From: Allomuricauda sp.
GTDB taxonomy: Bacteria > Bacteroidota > Bacteroidia > Flavobacteriales > Flavobacteriaceae
NCBI RefSeq assembly: GCF_013911645.1
Contig: NZ_JACESV010000003.1
Span: forward strand, 310,001 to 374,000
Length of the DNA: 64,000 bases
Reading direction: 5' to 3'
Position numbers and translations under genes: made by a program. The notes beneath the pieces are model-generated. The model saw nothing but the letters and a program-made list of their open reading frames with translations. It was not told the DNA's origin and did no database searches. Below, piece after piece: positions 37,842-52,966 of the stretch. The number at the start of each line of letters is the position of its first letter. Within the stretch, counting starts at the first letter, position 1.

Positions 37842-38924
37842 CTATGCGTTGATGATTTTTTCTTGGTGGTTGATGGATTCCTGGTGAATTGCCTTGAACA
37901 TCTTCAAAACAAATTCCTCACTCAATCCGCGTTGTTCACCTTCCAAGATCATATTGCCCAAAATGGCGTTCCAACGATTGCTTTGAAGTACGGCAACGTT
38001 CTTTTGCTTTTTCAGCTCGCCGATACCATCGGAAACCTTCATTCTTTTACCTAGCAAATCAATCAATTGATTGTCCAACACATCAATTTGTGCCCTAAGG
38101 TTGGTCAACTTGCTATTGTACTCAGCTTCTTCATCGGTTTCCTTTCTAATTCGAAGATCCTTCATAATCTGAACCAATGTTTTTGGGGTTACTTGCTGTG
38201 CAGCATCACTCCAAGCATTGTCCGGATCATAATGTGTTTCGATCATCAAACCATCAAAGTTCAGGTCCAATGCGGTTTGCGATACATCAAAGATCATATC
38301 GCGCTTACCGGTAATGTGGCTAGGATCGTTTATGATAGGCAAATCAGGAAACTTTGTTTGTAACTCAATGGCCAATTGCCATTCTGGAATGTTTCTGTAC
38401 TTCGTTTTTTCATAGGTGGAGAATCCTCTGTGGATCACGCCCAATTTTTCAATATTGGCGGAGTGCAAACGTTCCACGGCACCCAACCAAAGGGATAAAT
38501 CGGGATTTACGGGATTTTTCACCAAAACAATTTTATCGGTTCCTTCCAAAGCATCGGCAATTTCTTGGATAATGAAAGGGCTTACGGTGGAACGCGCTCC
38601 TATCCACAATAGATCCACATCATACTCCAATGCCAAATCCACATGTGCCCTATTGGCTACCTCGGTAGCGGTTTTTAAACCGGTTTCTTCCTTAACTTTT
38701 TGCAACCACTTCAATCCAATGGCTCCAACTCCCTCAAAATTTCCAGGACGAGTTCTTGGTTTCCAGATTCCAGCACGGTAATAATTCACGTCTGTATCTT
38801 TAAGCTCATGTGCTATCTTAAGCACCTGATCTTCGGTTTCGGCACTACATGGACCTGCAATTACCAGGGGATGACCCAAATTCATGTCATCCAACCATTT
38901 CCTCATTTCCTTTTTGTTTTCCAT
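37842..38924 (-). CDS. bifunctional DAHP synthase / chorismate mutase
   Basis: A 360-residue fusion. Residues about 1-260 form a type I-beta DAHP synthase (VIAGPCSAETEDQ near 21-33, IWKPRTRPGNFEG near 54-66, NDPSHITGKRDM near 199), catalysing entry into the shikimate pathway. Residues about 270-355 form an AroQ-type chorismate mutase (LRAQIDVLDNQLIDLLGKRM). Joining the mutase to DAHP synthase is often a way to give feedback sensitivity to prephenate or chorismate. It is the last gene of the pheA operon, 8 bp after tyrA. Related Bacteroidota genes are variously named aroG, aroF or aroA, so I give no symbol. Confidence 0.94.
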   Translation of the reverse strand: MENKKEMRKWLDDMNLGHPLVIAGPCSAETEDQVLKIAHELKDTDVNYYRAGIWKPRTRPGNFEGVGAIGLKWLQKVKEETGLKTATEVANRAHVDLALEYDVDLLWIGARSTVSPFIIQEIADALEGTDKIVLVKNPVNPDLSLWLGAVERLHSANIEKLGVIHRGFSTYEKTKYRNIPEWQLAIELQTKFPDLPIINDPSHITGKRDMIFDVSQTALDLNFDGLMIETHYDPDNAWSDAAQQVTPKTLVQIMKDLRIRKETDEEAEYNSKLTNLRAQIDVLDNQLIDLLGKRMKVSDGIGELKKQKNVAVLQSNRWNAILGNMILEGEQRGLSEEFVLKMFKAIHQESINHQEKIINA

Positions 38925-38932
38925 AATACGCT

Positions 38933-39793
38933 CTATTTTTTAGTAAGTGGTATTCCTTTTAGTATTTGTTTTATTTTATTGGTATTACTCATTTCTTGGT
39001 GGACATTTTCGAAATCGTTGTCCAAGATCAGTTGTTTGAACCTTGTTAGATTATCGATATACTCTTCGAGTGTCTCGACAACGTTGTCCTTGTTCTGCTC
39101 AAAAATCGGCGTCCACATATCGGGTGAACTTTTTGCCAAGCGAACAGTGCTTTCAAAACCACTCCCTGCCATGTCAAAAATATCACGCTCATTTTTTTCT
39201 TTCTCAATAACCGTCTTTCCCAACATAAAAGAGCTAATGTGTGATAAATGGGATACGTAGGCGATGTGCTTGTCATGAGCTTCGGGGTTCATGTACCGAA
39301 TCCGCATACCTATATCTTGAAAAATGGTCAACGCTTTTTCCTGAAGCTTGAAGGCTGTTTTTTCCACTTCGCAAATAATCATGGTCTTGCCGGTATACAA
39401 ACCTTCGAATGCCGCTGCCGGACCTGAAAATTCGGTACCCGCAATGGGGTGGCAGGCCATAAAATTCCTTCGTTTGGGATGATCTTCAACCTGCTCGCAG
39501 ATCAAACGTTTGGTGGAACCTGCATCCATTACCACAGTTTCATCTCCTGATGCATCCAGAATTTTGGGCAATTCGGTGACTAGAACATTCACTGGGATAC
39601 CCACGTAGACCATATCTGCCGTTTCCAGATCAGTGTAATCTCCTTTTTTATCAATAATTTGAAGTTGGAGTGCCTCATCCAAGTGGGCTTCGCTTTTGTC
39701 CACACCAATAATTTCCGCTTCGGGATGAAGCTTTTTTACATCTTTGGCAAAAGAACCCCCAATCAACCCAACTCCTATGATTACTACTTTCAT
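38933..39793 (-). CDS. tyrA: prephenate dehydrogenase
   Basis: Oxidatively decarboxylates prephenate to 4-hydroxyphenylpyruvate for tyrosine. The N-terminal Rossmann motif is GVGLIGGSFAKD (about 7-18). CHPIAGTEFSGP (about 114-125) is the substrate region and HLSHISSFML (about 186) holds the conserved catalytic-domain histidines. Length is 286; there is no C-terminal ACT domain and no fused mutase, since the mutase is on the neighbouring DAHP synthase. It lies three bases after the aminotransferase stop. Confidence 0.93.
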   Translation of the reverse strand: MKVVIIGVGLIGGSFAKDVKKLHPEAEIIGVDKSEAHLDEALQLQIIDKKGDYTDLETADMVYVGIPVNVLVTELPKILDASGDETVVMDAGSTKRLICEQVEDHPKRRNFMACHPIAGTEFSGPAAAFEGLYTGKTMIICEVEKTAFKLQEKALTIFQDIGMRIRYMNPEAHDKHIAYVSHLSHISSFMLGKTVIEKEKNERDIFDMAGSGFESTVRLAKSSPDMWTPIFEQNKDNVVETLEEYIDNLTRFKQLILDNDFENVHQEMSNTNKIKQILKGIPLTKK

Positions 39794-39796
39794 AAT

Positions 39797-40939
39797 CTAA
39801 AATCTTTCTATGGCTTCTTTGATTTTTTCTTCGCTCACGCAAAGTGAAAAACGAATATAGCCTTCGCCATTGCTTCCAAAAATGGTTCCCGGGGCAATAA
39901 AAATATCTTTATCGTACAATACCTCATCTATAAATTCTTCGGATGGCCCAGCTCCTTCGGGCAATTTGCACCAAACAAACATCCCAACTGCATTTTTATC
40001 GTAAGTACATCCCAATTTGTCAGCCAACTTAAACATCGATTCACGTCTTTTGGTGTACACCTCGCCCAATGCTTCAAACCATTCTGGACCACTTTGCAAA
40101 GCTGCAATCGCCCCTTTTTGGATTCCGTAGAACATCCCGGAGTCCATATTGCTCTTCACTTTCAACACAGCATTGATGTGTTCCGAACTTCCAAGAACCA
40201 TCCCCACACGCCAACCTGCCATATTAAAAGTCTTGCTCAAACTGTTCAGCTCCAAGGTGCAAATTTTTGCCCCAGCTATGGATAAGATACTGGTTGGATT
40301 GCTGGACAATACAAAACTGTAGGGGTTGTCGTTCACCAAAAGAATCCCGTTGGCTTTTGCAAAATTGACCAATGACTCCAGTTGTTCCTTAGTCGCAGTC
40401 GCACCCGTGGGCATGTGCGGATAACTGATCCACATGAGTTTCACCTTGGACAAATCCTTTTTGGAGAGCTCCTCCAAATCGGGGAACCAACCGTTTTCTG
40501 CTTTTAAGTCGTAATTGACCGCTTTTCCACCCACCAAATTGGTGACCGATGCATAGGTGGGATAGCCCGGGTTCGGCAACAGCACTTCATCTCCTTCATT
40601 TAAAAAGGCCATACTAATGTGCATAATTCCTTCCTTGGAACCCATCAAGGGCAAAATTTCGGTGCTGGGGTCTACCGATACAGCAAACTTTTGCTGATAG
40701 AAATCCGCAATGGCCTCCCTTAATTGTGGCAATCCTTGGTAGCTTTGGTATTGATGCGCTCCCGCCTCGATAATGGAATCCCGAAGGGTTTCCAATACCT
40801 GTGGTGACGGTGCCAAATCCGGACTACCAATCCCCATATTTATGATGGGTTTGCCCTGGGCAATCAACCCCCTTACCTCTCTTAATTTTTTGGAAAAGTA
40901 GTATTCCTGTACGCTATTTAGCCTATCTGCTGTTACCAT
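39797..40939 (-). CDS. class I/II aminotransferase, probably aromatic or prephenate-type
   Basis: A 380-residue PLP aminotransferase of fold type I. GIGSPDLAPSP (about 37-47), NPGYPTYAS and the PLP-lysine region NSLSKTFNMAGWRVG (Lys near 235) are seen, as is the substrate-carboxylate Arg in IRFSLCV (about 365). It lies between pheA and tyrA, so it likely transaminates phenylpyruvate and 4-hydroxyphenylpyruvate. Similar genes are often called LL-diaminopimelate or aspartate aminotransferase; context favours the aromatic role. The start ATG overlaps the pheA stop by one base. Confidence 0.88.
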   Translation of the reverse strand: MVTADRLNSVQEYYFSKKLREVRGLIAQGKPIINMGIGSPDLAPSPQVLETLRDSIIEAGAHQYQSYQGLPQLREAIADFYQQKFAVSVDPSTEILPLMGSKEGIMHISMAFLNEGDEVLLPNPGYPTYASVTNLVGGKAVNYDLKAENGWFPDLEELSKKDLSKVKLMWISYPHMPTGATATKEQLESLVNFAKANGILLVNDNPYSFVLSSNPTSILSIAGAKICTLELNSLSKTFNMAGWRVGMVLGSSEHINAVLKVKSNMDSGMFYGIQKGAIAALQSGPEWFEALGEVYTKRRESMFKLADKLGCTYDKNAVGMFVWCKLPEGAGPSEEFIDEVLYDKDIFIAPGTIFGSNGEGYIRFSLCVSEEKIKEAIERF

Positions 40940-41769
40940 TACAACAATGCATTTTTATATTCCCCCAAAACCTTGAAATCTTCGGCCATGATCTGCATCA
41001 AAGATTTGGTTTTGGCAAAGTGCTCATATTTATCAAAAGTTACATCCACAAAAAAGGCATACTTCCATGGGGTCTCGATCACGGGCAAGGATTGTATTTT
41101 GGTCATGTTCATATTGCAATCACTCATCACGTTCAATACGGTTGCCAAACTGCCCCTTTTGTGATCGGTTATAAATCGCAACGATGCCTTGTTGATTTCC
41201 TCTTCTGGAAGTACTTTGTTTTGCTTTTTAAGAATGATGAACCGCGTGGAATTGTTCACAATGGTCTGTATGTTGTCCGCAATTATTTCCAAATCATACA
41301 GATCGGCAGCCATTTTGGGGGCTATTGCCGCGATGTGTTCCAAGTTTTCATCTTTGATTCTTTTGGCCGTTTCCGCTGTATCCACACTTTCCACCAGTTT
41401 GATCTGGGGATGTGCCTTAAAAAATTCCTTGCACTGCAACAATGCCATGGGGTGCGAATGTACTTCTTGGATGTCATCAAAAGATTTCCCCTTCATCACC
41501 ATTAGATTATGGTGGATGTTCAGATAATGCTCCCCGATTACATGAATGTTGTTGTGGTAGACCAAGTTGTAATTGGGTATAATGGAACCGGCGATGGAGT
41601 TTTCAATCGCCATTATACCTTTATCGGCGGTACCGATCAACAAATTGTCCACGACTGCATCAAAAGAGTTGCACTCTAGCAACTCAATATCATCTCCAAA
41701 AAAATCCGTAGCAACCTGATGGTGGTTGGACCCCTTTATTCCTTGTATGGCGACTTTTATTAATTCCAT
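40939..41769 (-). CDS. pheA: prephenate dehydratase
   Basis: Converts prephenate to phenylpyruvate. Residues about 1-180 form the periplasmic-binding-like catalytic domain (AIENSIAGSIIPNYNLV near 55-71, NNSTRFIIL near 167, the conserved Thr-Arg-Phe). A C-terminal ACT domain (about 195-265, RGSLATVLNVMSDCNMNMTKIQSLP) probably senses phenylalanine. At 276 residues it has no fused chorismate mutase; that activity is on the last gene of the operon. It is the first structural gene after the attenuator at 41773-41901. Confidence 0.94.
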   Translation of the reverse strand: MELIKVAIQGIKGSNHHQVATDFFGDDIELLECNSFDAVVDNLLIGTADKGIMAIENSIAGSIIPNYNLVYHNNIHVIGEHYLNIHHNLMVMKGKSFDDIQEVHSHPMALLQCKEFFKAHPQIKLVESVDTAETAKRIKDENLEHIAAIAPKMAADLYDLEIIADNIQTIVNNSTRFIILKKQNKVLPEEEINKASLRFITDHKRGSLATVLNVMSDCNMNMTKIQSLPVIETPWKYAFFVDVTFDKYEHFAKTKSLMQIMAEDFKVLGEYKNALL

Positions 41770-41772
41770 TGC

Positions 41773-41803
41773 AAAAAAAAAGCCCCGATTGTATCGGGAC
41801 TTT
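41773..41803 (-). terminator. attenuator terminator in front of pheA
   Basis: On the minus strand AAAGTCCCGAT (41803-41793) pairs with ATCGGGGCTTT (41789-41779) over 11 bp with one G-U pair and a 3-nt loop, followed by nine T (41781-41773). It ends only three bases before the pheA ATG, so it can stop transcription before the operon begins and would also hide the initiation region. Confidence 0.9.
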
Positions 41804-41829
41804 ATAAATTGGTTATACTTTAAACGTAT

Positions 41830-41901
41830 CTACAATAGTCCCGTTCCTCTTTGAAAAAAGAAGTAAAAATAAAAACGGTTCCAGAAATACGTGTTTGTCA
41901 T
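41830..41901 (-). CDS. aromatic-rich leader peptide of the pheA attenuator
   Basis: A 23-residue peptide starting ATG at 41901 and ending TAG at 41832-41830. Residues 5-16 read YFWNRFYFYFFF, and ten of 23 residues are Phe (6), Tyr (3) or Trp (1). Such density is not expected by chance and is the hallmark of leader peptides for aromatic biosynthesis operons (compare E. coli pheA). The frame stops 60 nt before the pheA start. A strong Shine-Dalgarno sequence is not seen; Bacteroidota often lack one. Confidence 0.88.
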   Translation of the reverse strand: MTNTYFWNRFYFYFFFQRGTGLL

Positions 41902-42137
41902 CTCGTTGTTAATTGTCGGCTAATTTAGGTATTCAATTTGAAACACACAGACATTCCCAAATTTTTTTTGATTTTTTTCAAAAAAGAGATTTTCACTGCA
42001 CATTATTTGACAGAAACCATGCTTTTTTAAGAATTCCTATTTTCACGACTGTTCCCGAGCAATTCTAAACCAGATTTTAAAACCCAAGGATTAAAGCATC
42101 TAAAAGTGTATTTTTGATTTGACTCTAAGCCTTCACA
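41902..42137. other. divergent intergenic region, no gene seen
   Basis: AT-rich stretch with long T and A runs (41961-41990). A -7-like TATTTTTG at 42109-42116 reads towards the gene at 42138. It must also contain the promoter of the pheA attenuator on the other strand, but I could not place it with confidence. Confidence 0.5.
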
Positions 42138-42482
42138 ATGAAAAATGGAACGTATACTTTAAGGGAAAAGCCAAAATTTGAAATTGATTTGTCCGATAAT
42201 TCCATTAAAATAGTTAATAAAAGCAAGGTTCAGTCAAGCTCATCATTTATACTTGATAAGATTGAAACATTTGAAATAAAAGAAAGAAGAACCAATTGGT
42301 TGATTACTATCCTTAGTTTTGTTGTGGAAATCTTTTCGAGTATTTCTGTTCCCGGAAAATATTCAGAAGGCTCACAATTGCTTATGGAATATGAAGGAAA
42401 TACATTTAAATATTATCTGAATGATTGTGACCTGAAACTTCTGAGTGAAATTCAAAACAAACTACAAAACATAACCCAATAA
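42138..42482 (+). CDS. hypothetical protein upstream of gldA
   Basis: A 114-residue protein. It begins MKNGTYTLREKPKFEIDLSDN, has strand-like segments, one hydrophobic stretch (LITILSFVVEIFSSISV, about 54-70) and a helical end. I recognise no family. Its stop codon is immediately followed by the gldA ATG, so the two are likely translated from one message. It may be an accessory or simply a co-transcribed gene. Composition is more AT-rich than its neighbours. Confidence 0.72.
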   Translation: MKNGTYTLREKPKFEIDLSDNSIKIVNKSKVQSSSSFILDKIETFEIKERRTNWLITILSFVVEIFSSISVPGKYSEGSQLLMEYEGNTFKYYLNDCDLKLLSEIQNKLQNITQ

Positions 42483-48105: not shown

Positions 48106-49059
48106 TTAAAAAAGTTCCTTTGCTATGGCCTTGATATTATCCGATTTTCCCATGGAGTAATAATGTAACACGGGCACACCTGCTTCCCTCAATTCTTTGG
48201 ATTGCTGAATGGCCCATTCCACCCCAACTTGACGCACTTCTTTATTGTTATTGCAAGCTTCAACGGCATCAATCAAATCTTGTGGCAGATCTATACTGAA
48301 AACATGGGGCAATAATTGCAAGTGACGTTTAACGGCTATTGGCTTGATTCCCGGAATAATCGGAACATCAATGCCCATTTCACGTGCAGCCTTAACAAAG
48401 GCAAAAAACTTTTGATTGTCAAAAAACATCTGGGTCACCACATAATCCGCTCCCAAATCCACTTTTTCCTTCAAGCGTTTTAAATCAGATTGAAGGGAAG
48501 GTGCTTCCATGTGTTTTTCGGGATAGCCTGCCACCCCGATACAAAAACTGTTCAAATCGCTTGATTCGATGGTATCGTGCAAGTAATTACCCTCGTTAAT
48601 ATCCTGAATTTGCTTTACCAATTCTGTGGCATACTGGTGACCGCCTTCTGTGGGAGTAAAATATTTTTCCTCTTTTCTGGCATCACCACGGAGTGCCATT
48701 ACATTTTCTATCTCCAAATACTGACAGTCCACCAATAGGTATTCGGTTTCCTCTTTGGTAAAACCTCCGCATAGCACATGAGGAACGGTATCCACATTGT
48801 ATTTATGCTTCAAAGATGCACAGATGCCCAAAGTTCCAGGACGTGTACGCGTAAGTTTTTTATCCAACAGACCATCTTTCTCCTTATAAATGTATTCTTC
48901 CCTAGAGGTGGTCACATCAATAAAAGGGGGCTTGAACTCCATCAAAGGGTCAATATTTTTGTAGAGCTCTTGAATGCTTTTTCCTTTTACGGGTGGCACA
49001 ATCTCAAAACTGAAAAGGGTTTTGCCATTCGCCTTTTTTATGTGATCGGTAATTTTCAT
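48106..49059 (-). CDS. metF: 5,10-methylenetetrahydrofolate reductase
   Basis: MetF makes 5-methyltetrahydrofolate with NAD(P)H and FAD; the two metH products then use it. The protein begins MKITDHIKKANGKTLFSFEIVPP, and MALRGDARK (about 117-125) and FFVDN-like QMFFDNQKFFAF (about 207-218) are typical of the TIM-barrel. Length is 317. It begins three bases after the metH C-terminal gene ends, at the end of the SAM-controlled operon. Confidence 0.95.
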   Translation of the reverse strand: MKITDHIKKANGKTLFSFEIVPPVKGKSIQELYKNIDPLMEFKPPFIDVTTSREEYIYKEKDGLLDKKLTRTRPGTLGICASLKHKYNVDTVPHVLCGGFTKEETEYLLVDCQYLEIENVMALRGDARKEEKYFTPTEGGHQYATELVKQIQDINEGNYLHDTIESSDLNSFCIGVAGYPEKHMEAPSLQSDLKRLKEKVDLGADYVVTQMFFDNQKFFAFVKAAREMGIDVPIIPGIKPIAVKRHLQLLPHVFSIDLPQDLIDAVEACNNNKEVRQVGVEWAIQQSKELREAGVPVLHYYSMGKSDNIKAIAKELF

Positions 49060-49062
49060 TGG

Positions 49063-51741
49063 TTATTCGTCAACTATGTTGGGAGCAAGCCATTTTTGGG
49101 CTTCCTCTAGTTTCATATTTTTTCGCTCAGCAAAATCCTGAACTTGGTCTTGCTTTATTTTTCCCAATCCAAAATATTTGGCCTGTGGATGTCCAAAATA
49201 GTAGCCGCTAACACTTGCCGCGGGCCACATGGCCAGACTATCGGTCAGTTTTACCCCTATTTTTTCTTCCACATCCATCATCTCCCAAATAGTGAGTTTC
49301 TCTAAGTGGTCGGGACAGGCAGGGTAACCGGGTGCGGGTCGGATACCTCGATATTTTTCTTTGATCAGCTCCGTATTGTCCAAATTTTCATCTACTGCAT
49401 AGCCCCAATATTTGGTCCGGACTTCTTTGTGAAGATATTCTGCAAAAGCCTCTGCGAATCTATCCGCCAAAGCTTTGATCATAATGGAATTGTAATCATC
49501 GTGATTTTTTTCAAACTGAGCGGCCAATTCTTGGGTACCGAAACCTGCACTCACGCAAAAACAACCTATGTAATCTTGAATTCCAGAAGCTTTCGGGGCA
49601 ATAAAATCTGCCAATGCGATATTAGGGACTCCTTCGCGCTTTTTTAATTGTTGACGAAGGGTTCTAAAAATGAAGGTTTCTTCTTCCTTTTCTACTTCTA
49701 TATCATCTTCGTTGATTTGATTGGCAGGAAACAACCCGAAGATAGCCTTGGCCTTCAATAGTTTTTCATCCAACACTTGGTTCAAAAGCTCTTTGGCATC
49801 TTTAAAGAGTTCTTTGGCCTGTTCTCCAACAACCTCATCGGTCAAAATATCGGGATATTTACCGTGCAAGTCCCAACTTCGGAAGAACGGAGACCAATCA
49901 ATGTATTCTTTCAACTTGGTCAAATCAAAATCTTCCCAAACTTGAATGCCCAACTGGTTTGGTTTTTTAATGTCTGATGGATCCCACTCGATTTCAAGTT
50001 TGTTCTTCCTTGCTTGCTCCAAAGTCAAATATTCCTTCTGCTTTCCTCGCTTTAAAAACTTCTCCCTAAAGCTTTCATAATCCAGTTTGATGGATTTTTT
50101 ATAACCCGCAGAAGTCTCATCCTGAAGCAAATCCCCCACTACCGTTACCGCTCTCGATGCATCGTTTACGTGCACTACAGCCTGACTGTATTGAGGGTCA
50201 ATCTTCACTGCTGTATGGGCTTTGCTCGTGGTAGCACCGCCAATCAGAAGTGGAACCTCAAAGTTTTGACGCTCCATTTCTTTGGCCAAAAACACCATTT
50301 CGTCCAAGGATGGGGTGATCAATCCGCTCAAACCGATAATATCAACCTGTTTTTCCTTGGCCTCGTTTATAATTTTTTCCGGTGGCACCATCACTCCAAG
50401 ATCCACGATTTCGTAATTGTTGCAGGCAAGCACTACGCTCACTATATTTTTTCCAATATCGTGCACATCGCCCTTAACGGTGGCCATCAGTATTTTTCCG
50501 GCAGCCTTGGCATTTTTGTCTTTGGATGCTTCAATATATGGCGTCAAATACGCTACGGCCTTCTTCATCACCCTGGCGGATTTCACCACCTGTGGCAGAA
50601 ACATTTTGCCGCTCCCAAAGAGATCGCCCACCACGTTCATTCCGGTCATTAAATTACCTTCTATAACGTGCAAAGGTTTGGCAGCCTGTTGGCGGGCCTC
50701 TTCCACATCTTCAATAATATATTGATCTATTCCCTTGACCAAGGCACGGGTAATACGGTCTTGTAGCGGTTCTTCTCTCCACGAAAGGTCTACTTTGCTT
50801 TCCTTTGCGGTACCCACAACGGTTTCCGCAAATTCCAATAGGCGTTCGGTGGCATCGTCCCGCCTATCCAATAGTACATCCTCCACATGTTCGAGCAAGT
50901 CTTTGGGTATATCATCATAGACCTCCAACATGGTAGGGTTTACAATCCCAATGTTCATTCCAGCTTTAATGGCATGGAACAAAAAGGCTGAATTTATGGC
51001 CTCCCGTACTGGATTGTTTCCCCTAAACGAGAACGAAACGTTACTCACTCCCCCACTAACACTGCAATAGGGAAGGTTTTCCTTAACCCAACGGGTTGCC
51101 TCTATAAAATCTACGGCGTTGCGCCTGTGCTCCTCCATTCCCGTAGCTACGGGAAAAATGTTCAGGTCGAAAATAATGTCCTCTGGAGGGAATTTTACCT
51201 TATTGACCAGCACATCATAAGATCGTTTGGCAATTTCAATACGACGTTCCAAGTTATCGGCTTGCCCAACTTCATCAAAGGCCATAACAATAACTGCGGC
51301 ACCATATCGCTTGATCAATTTGGCATGTCGGATAAATTCTTCTTCTCCTTCTTTGAGACTGATGGAATTTACCACGCATTTACCTTGTACCACCTGAAGT
51401 CCAGCTTCGATGATTTCCCATTTGGAACTATCGATCATAATGGGCACCCGGGCAATATCGGGCTCGGAAACGATCAGGTTCAAGAACTTGACCATGGCTT
51501 TTTTACCATCTATCAAGCCATCATCCATGTTCACATCAATGATCTGGGCACCACCCTCCACTTGATTGCGGGCAATATCCAGGGCCTCATCAAATTTTTC
51601 TTCTTTAATGAGCCTTAAAAACCGTTTGGAACCCGCCACATTGGTACGTTCCCCTACGTTAATGAAATTGCTTTCCGGGGTAATGATCAAGGGTTCGAGT
51701 CCGCTCAGCTTCAAATATCGTTGTTCGTTGTTCGTTGCCAT
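49063..51741 (-). CDS. metH: methionine synthase, C-terminal part (pterin, cobalamin and reactivation domains)
   Basis: An 892-residue cobalamin-dependent protein lacking the homocysteine domain. Order: pterin-binding domain (about 1-300, [18 protein letters not shown] at 26-43), helical cap and Rossmann B12-binding domain with the [10 protein letters not shown] cobalamin-binding motif (about 430), and C-terminal reactivation domain (about 570-890) with [15 protein letters not shown] (about 800). The homocysteine domain is in the next gene, so this is a split MetH, which is common in Bacteroidota. Its ATG lies three bases after that gene's stop. Confidence 0.95.
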
Positions 51742-52823: not shown

Positions 52824-52960
52824 TTATCCTTCCCCAATGGCAGGATGTTGCTCCGTACTTTCCCGAGAATCGTTCAGGACAAGGGTAGAATGTAGCACCT
52901 TCTCGAAGTCGAGGGTTGCTAAGGCTTCAACGGGTCCAATCCCTCCACCTTTCTTGATAA
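52824..52960 (-). ncRNA. SAM-I (S-box) riboswitch
   Basis: Read on the minus strand, the conserved S-box elements appear in order: TTATCAAGA, GGTGGAGGGA, TGGACCC, TGAAGCC, GCAACC, then GGTGCTACATTCTACC, ending with GATAAC. GTTATC at the start pairs with GATAAC at the end to close P1. SAM-I riboswitches lower expression of methionine genes when SAM is high. No clear intrinsic terminator was found between P1 and the metH start codon, so the expression platform is unresolved. Confidence 0.93.
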
Positions 52961-52966
52961 CACTTT

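Follow-up and report, generated by a model that had tools for sequence, protein, structure and literature searches.

Comparative analysis predicts a four-segment Phe/Tyr leader-peptide attenuator upstream of the pheA operon in Allomuricauda sp. and other Flavobacteriaceae

Ribosome-mediated attenuation requires a ribosome on the nascent RNA right behind the RNA polymerase. We take the Rfam family RF01859 (Phe_leader) to be the pheL/pheA attenuator of gammaproteobacteria; attenuators in Bacteroidetes were reportedly described by Vitreschak 2004 and Lopatovskaya 2010. According to the accessible text of PMC1183508, the trp and his attenuators of E. coli comprise regions I–IV, which form the mutually exclusive hairpins I:II, II:III and III:IV, with the regulatory codons located in region I. 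Another leader-peptide attenuator RNA, RF01692 (Bacteroid-trp; Weinberg 2010, PMC2864571, accessible part), comes from the same phylum as the locus analyzed here and differs from it in being a Trp leader with a WWW run. In the same phylum, some long 5′ UTRs of Bacteroides thetaiotaomicron contain short ORFs that the authors considered to be reminiscent of attenuation-mediating leader peptides, and the accessible text mentions neither pheA nor phenylalanine (PMC7366714). For the same gene and the same family, a 5′ element of pheA has been named in Flavobacterium psychrophilum (PMC9723704, 2021). The accessible part of that paper indicates that structured 5′ regions, including those of pheA and hisG, are conserved in other Flavobacteriaceae genera and that leader-peptide attenuation is strongly suggested for amino-acid operons, so the suggestion of the initial annotation that such a leader may be undescribed in Flavobacteriaceae does not hold. 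The same part of the paper contains no leader sequence, four-segment model, or codon or pairing test. No further detailed study of the pheA leader was found in the literature searched, which included few subscription papers and no supplements. Precedent thus exists for the kind of element, the phylum and the gene; what is added here, as far as our searches reached, is a four-segment model for pheA together with comparative evidence at the family and class levels.

The window, that is, the whole 64,000-nt stretch of Allomuricauda sp. DNA analyzed, contains four genes packed almost gap-free, with pheA as the first of them (Table 1). Their content indicates that the operon supplies both Phe and Tyr, starting from chorismate, and also feeds the common pathway. 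The order pheA–aminotransferase–tyrA–DAHPS/CM was found unchanged in 30 of 32 loci, and the contigs of the remaining two end earlier. The PheA protein of the window is identical to that of Muricauda sp. TY007, the nearest named record among the matches listed.

Table 1. Features of the pheA leader and operon, with positions in the window
Feature	Position	Strand	Basis or remark
Promoter-like -7 box TAAATTAG	41920..41927	-	1 mismatch to Bacteroidota consensus TAnnTTTG
Leader peptide ORF MTNTYFWNRFYFYFFFQRGTGLL	41830..41901	-	translation; control codons Y5-F16
Segment 1:2, leader-internal hairpin (putative protector)	41824..41892	-	-17.0 kcal/mol in window
Segment 2 core CGGGACT, antiterminator 5′ strand	41837..41843	-	pairing analysis
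Segment 3 core AGTCCCG, common to antiterminator and terminator	41795..41801	-	pairing analysis
Intrinsic terminator, segments 3:4 and T9 tail	41773..41803	-	hairpin AAAGTCCCGATACAATCGGGGCTTT at 41803-41779
pheA, prephenate dehydratase	40939..41769	-	PF00800, 196.6 bits
Class I/II aminotransferase	39797..40939	-	PF00155
tyrA, prephenate dehydrogenase	38933..39793	-	NF006307, 391.6 bits (cut-off 295)
DAHP synthase/chorismate mutase fusion	37842..38924	-	PF00793, PF01817

The Phe/Tyr leader element runs along the minus strand from 41901 to 41773. Translation of the ORF bore out the 23-residue leader with ten aromatic residues (F/Y/W) reported in the initial annotation; the leader is thus rich in codons for the amino acids that the operon supplies. 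The T9-tailed terminator placed there three bases before pheA was likewise found: the T's at 41781–41773 are followed by GCA and by the pheA ATG at 41769, so that an intrinsic terminator separates the leader from the first gene. The exact complementarity of CGGGACT, which lies within ACG GGA CTA of leader codons 20–22, to AGTCCCG also proved correct. All three attenuator parts listed in that annotation are present, but their count has to be changed, since the conserved 1:2 hairpin makes four segments. This hairpin had been missed, as had the -7 box. The 141-nt stretch 41765–41905 of the minus strand folds at -33.4 kcal/mol (z -3.13), beating 200 of 200 dinucleotide shuffles, and the plus-strand fold of the leader region is at the shuffle level (z -0.14).

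Flavobacteriaceae were sampled with 149 genomes, one for each genus; PheA was detected at E ≤ 0.001 in 130 of them, and all 130 upstream regions were scanned. The formal test called for an ORF that starts with ATG, has 14–45 codons and contains at least five aromatic residues amounting to at least 25%, together with a hairpin of ≤ -8 kcal/mol with a T tail located 5–80 nt past the stop codon. This leader-plus-terminator test was passed by 125 of the 130 family loci; the five failures are L055, L063, L085, L096 and L121. In L055, the locus is cut by the contig end, and the leader end and terminator are still visible; in the other four, no leader was found upstream of pheA. Where the leader would be expected in L063 and L121, visual inspection showed repeated hairpin-like or short repeat sequences, which might have displaced the attenuator.

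Outside the family, 25 of 40 pheA loci from the same class or order passed the formal test, namely, 9 of 12 (L171–L185 minus L175, L179 and L183) and 16 of 28 (L198–L225), as did two of the seven loci labelled as the same phylum only (L179, L183, L186–L190). Two loci that fail the test, L172 and L199, appear positive by eye, and the short leader of L172 starts with GTG. The predicted pheA leader extends beyond the genus and the family. The wider sampling comprised 30 loci (28 new identifiers, three from genomes already sampled) of 102 genomes matching PheA, and the weaker PheA matches from those 102 genomes were represented only by two order members; no PheA match was found in 108 of 149 class genomes. 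In the class family f41, none of the five loci read (L201, L202, L206, L208 and L211) has an aromatic leader that passes the formal test, despite the presence of PheA, and these loci would offer a natural loss for comparison. A universal leader in all relatives was rejected, being absent in four family loci and the five f41 loci.

The derived analyses were performed with 121 of the 130 family loci, which came from a first-pass search and were picked at ≥ 7 aromatic residues. The loci left out were L015, L055, L063, L079, L085, L096, L101, L116 and L121, of which L015, L079, L101 and L116 do have the leader and pass the formal test. Since 121 of 130 were retained, selection by aromatic count explains little of what follows. 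The start codon is ATG in 121 of 121 leaders (the search favoured ATG). A Shine-Dalgarno-like tetramer precedes just one of the 121, which sets these leaders apart from RF01859 and, being SD-less, from the trp and his attenuators of E. coli. An A is found at -3 of the leader start in 76% of them; adenine at this position favours initiation in F. johnsoniae, according to the accessible part of PMC6847099.

Of the 121 leaders, 113 have a -7 box of the form TAnnTT[TAG]G no more than 70 nt upstream, at a median of 25 nt before the leader ATG; in 200 mononucleotide shuffles, the same box was found on average in 14.9 and at most in 25 of 121. The Bacteroidota consensus TAnnTTTG used for the window is that given in the accessible text of PMC9723704. 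By eye, no clear -33 element was seen upstream of the window leader. Given the position of its -7 box and the spacing of 4–5 nt between this box and the start site stated in the available part of PMC6847099, transcription probably starts near 41915, which would leave a 5′ UTR of about 14 nt.

A strongly hydrophobic, aromatic peptide recurs across much of the class, as might be expected if the peptide itself arrested the ribosome (nascent-chain sensing) or worked in trans as a small protein. The sequences of the leaders make this highly improbable. All 121 are distinct as DNA and 120 distinct peptides are encoded, with Phe and Tyr swapping freely. In addition, the C-terminal residues track the pairing arm, as expected if the RNA and not the peptide is selected: the codon register of segment 2 differs by group, with TGLL accompanying CGGGACT and NETLYV accompanying CGAGACT, and this shift points to RNA pairing over peptide sequence.

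The pairing itself was assessed by swapping arms among the 121 leaders. The 2:3 duplex energy was -10.84 kcal/mol with own arms vs. -8.11 kcal/mol with swapped arms, the best of 2000 permutation means being -8.84 kcal/mol. Exact complementary runs between segments 2 and 3 had a mean length of 6.06 (permutation maximum 5.11 in 5000), and exact Watson-Crick runs of at least 6 were present in 79 of 121 leaders and in at most 48 across the 5000 permutations. When the left arms were sorted into 12 types, six of which are single loci, segment 2 fitted its own type strictly best in eight rows and tied in one; own type was not the best for GTTCCG (3 loci), GGCTCG (1) and ATCCCG (4), the last being beaten by the near-identical AATTCCCGATTC. 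This own-versus-swapped pairing supports, computationally, an antiterminator 2:3 that excludes the terminator.

The initial annotation had proposed a family alignment as a check, and its two parts came out differently: the aromatic codon runs are conserved, but compensatory changes did not emerge in a fixed register, with 56.1% of 2:3 cells paired in the MAFFT alignment vs. a shuffle mean of 55.7% and maximum of 57.0%. This failure of fixed columns arises because many of the leaders are misplaced by one base in the alignment. Shifting the partner by one raised the share of paired cells to 72.3% (shuffle maximum 69.3%); for the terminator pairs, the value was 98.0% vs. a shuffle maximum of 94.5%. 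The duplex-energy swap preceded the fixed-column result, and the exact-run test followed it. When RNAalifold was run on the 121 leaders, its consensus recovered the terminator alone.

The leader-internal 1:2 hairpin was compared with codon-shuffled control regions and gave a mean z of -2.59, with 88% of the 121 leaders below -1. It overlaps the control codons and may act as the protector or as a pause site for RNA polymerase; it is a conserved fourth segment and corresponds to the 1:2 hairpin of the textbook model (PMC1183508). In the folds of L030, L035, L039 and L050, the final codons pair with early aromatic codons, and L097 has a weak 1:2 hairpin (-5.1 kcal/mol).

The gap between the last aromatic codon and segment 2 was measured in 98 of 121 leaders, the 23 with exact runs under 5 being left out; its median is 11 nt (IQR 9–11, range -1 to 29). 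A ribosome covers about 11 nt past its A-site codon, and this was assumed in a ribosome-walk model in which the ribosome was masked, the transcript ended where segment 4 begins, and the score was one sixth of the expected number of 2:3 pairs. The mean score of the 121 leaders was 1.2–1.3 over the twelve codons preceding the last aromatic codon, 0.96 at that codon, 0.21 one codon on, 0.06 two codons past it and 0.06 at the stop codon. For the window leader, the score fell from 1.31 at F16 to 0.67, 0.22 and 0.02 over the following three codons. With the median gap of 11 nt, the modelled ribosome therefore flips the fold no further than about one codon from the last aromatic codon; footprints of 8 or 14 nt instead shift the step by one codon (40 of 121 leaders). 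On the complete transcript at equilibrium, the terminator is still favoured with a stalled ribosome (family mean at least 0.80), so antitermination there must be kinetic. For the window leader, the terminator on the complete transcript drops to 0.17–0.36 for codons 6–11. If the ribosome is omitted altogether, the shortened transcript continues to form 2:3 (score 1.48 in the window and 0.88 in the family mean).

The region is AT-rich and poly-T is read as FFF, so that an aromatic ORF could arise by chance in a T-rich tract, and a terminator merely insulating pheA from upstream transcription would by itself account for the hairpin. A loose scan of both strands of the window (≥ 5 aromatics, ≥ 25%, followed by a T-tailed hairpin) returned the pheA leader and two other matches with 6 and 8 aromatics, whose hairpins of -8.0 and -8.3 kcal/mol lie at the cut-off of -8. 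Such a coincidence is extremely improbable at pheA in view of codon usage: codons 2–18 of the 121 leaders contain, in frame, 1012 TTY/TAY vs. 21 TTR/TAR codons (98% pyrimidine), whereas the purity in the other two frames is 65% and 51%, which indicates that the leader frame is under codon-level selection. Moreover, the spacing is conserved and segment 2 pairs with its own arm. There is also no apparent incoming transcript to be insulated from, since the closest upstream ORF of at least 80 codons (42138–42482) lies on the opposite strand and is transcribed away from pheA.

According to the Rfam search, no family reaches its cut-off on the window pheA leader. The Phe_leader model aligns over all its 125 positions at 41896–41773 of the minus strand with 33.6 bits (gathering score 55); elsewhere, it gave 29.7 bits in L122 and matched 3 of 20 further loci at E ≤ 1 (best 30.7 bits), and no Phe_leader match was found in L030 at E ≤ 1. 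Judging from these sub-cut-off scores, the element stands outside the Rfam family as curated, although it is predicted to act like a Phe leader. It shares with RF01859 the position before pheA, the leader hairpin and the terminator. Leaders of the window type differ in mixing Phe and Tyr (means of 5.3 and 3.5 per leader), usually with one Trp (Trp in 84 of 121, exactly one in 83 of those), and in preceding a joint Phe and Tyr operon. The pheA leader provides a well-defined RNA family lying below every current Rfam cut-off. A metabolite riboswitch or T-box sensing Phe or tRNA directly, without translation, would also place alternative structures ahead of an amino-acid operon, but it is hardly credible here, as the leader has no match at the gathering score (the only such match in the window is a SAM riboswitch elsewhere), its best Rfam match is a leader-peptide family and the RNAalifold consensus has no aptamer-like core.

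The pheA leader is thus predicted, with little doubt, to be a classic four-segment ribosome-mediated transcription attenuator of a Phe/Tyr operon. This reading, already given as a Phe/Tyr leader-peptide attenuator in the initial annotation, gains support from the conservation in 125 of 130 loci, the codon-level constraint, the own-versus-swapped pairing and the ribosome geometry. What was established computationally is the anatomy of the element, its conservation, the constraint on its codons and its pairing; leader translation, for which the 98% in-frame TTY/TAY purity and the A at -3 are comparative signs, stalling and the Phe/Tyr response would run as set out below. Transcription would begin about 14 nt ahead of the leader AUG, and a ribosome would start translating the leader with no Shine-Dalgarno sequence to guide it. 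Under a shortage of charged tRNA-Phe or tRNA-Tyr, the ribosome would stall in the aromatic run (codons 5–16) and melt segment 1, leaving segment 2 free; 2:3 would then pair before segment 4 exists, no terminator would form and pheA-AT-tyrA-DAHPS/CM would be transcribed. With Phe and Tyr ample, the ribosome would reach the stop codon and cover segment 2, so that 3:4 would form and transcription would end after about 140 nt. Such an attenuator would explain the control of aromatic amino-acid synthesis in Flavobacteriaceae.

Leaders of the same kind were found at other operons. In family hisG, a His-run leader with a terminator was present in 29 of 30 loci examined (42 genomes with hisG), and in family trpE a Trp-run leader with a terminator was present in 29 of 30 loci examined (45 genomes with a match); the background of 252 window stretches contained two His-run and five Trp-run matches, the trpE scan covering 900 nt upstream and the background 500 nt. 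These counts support the view that the family uses attenuation habitually. More tentatively, SD-less attenuation may be general for amino-acid operons in Bacteroidota, with the pheA leader as a multi-input version in which a single switch ahead of a shared chorismate-branch operon reads Phe, Tyr and, by way of the usual lone Trp codon, perhaps Trp, a proposal that we consider possible and somewhat doubtful. If true, it would mean tight transcription-translation coupling on RNAs with a 5′ UTR of only about 14 nt. The Phe/Tyr, His, Trp and Ile/Val leaders of an SD-less phylum would offer a natural assay of coupling and of SD-less initiation.

In the genome of the window itself, hisG is preceded by the His leader MRNKNTHHHFYTCPQAR and a terminator (L191:1197–1304), for which no Rfam match was found at E ≤ 1. 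The Trp leader MINGTVNIWWWTNLRRMS and a terminator precede trpE (L192:412–517), with 59.1 bits to RF01692 (gathering score 49). By eye, the trpE terminator GGCTTGTC...GACAAGCC is almost invariant across the 29 leader-bearing trpE loci of the 30. Between the trp attenuator and trpE lies an ORF (L192:580–864) that resembles a GIY-YIG nuclease, and the attenuator would therefore control it too. At ilvD, the Ile/Val leader MKINNQVIVEVIIISEME is followed by a terminator (L197, minus strand, ~2861–2754), and Rfam Thr_leader matched this locus with 37.6 bits, short of the required 55. For the two homoserine dehydrogenase loci of this genome, no leader/terminator pair was reported. Elsewhere in the window, the SAM riboswitch (56.2 bits) is located at 52855–52963 of the minus strand, and the genes downstream of it are presumably of the methionine type, resembling metF (48106–49059) and metH (49063–51741).
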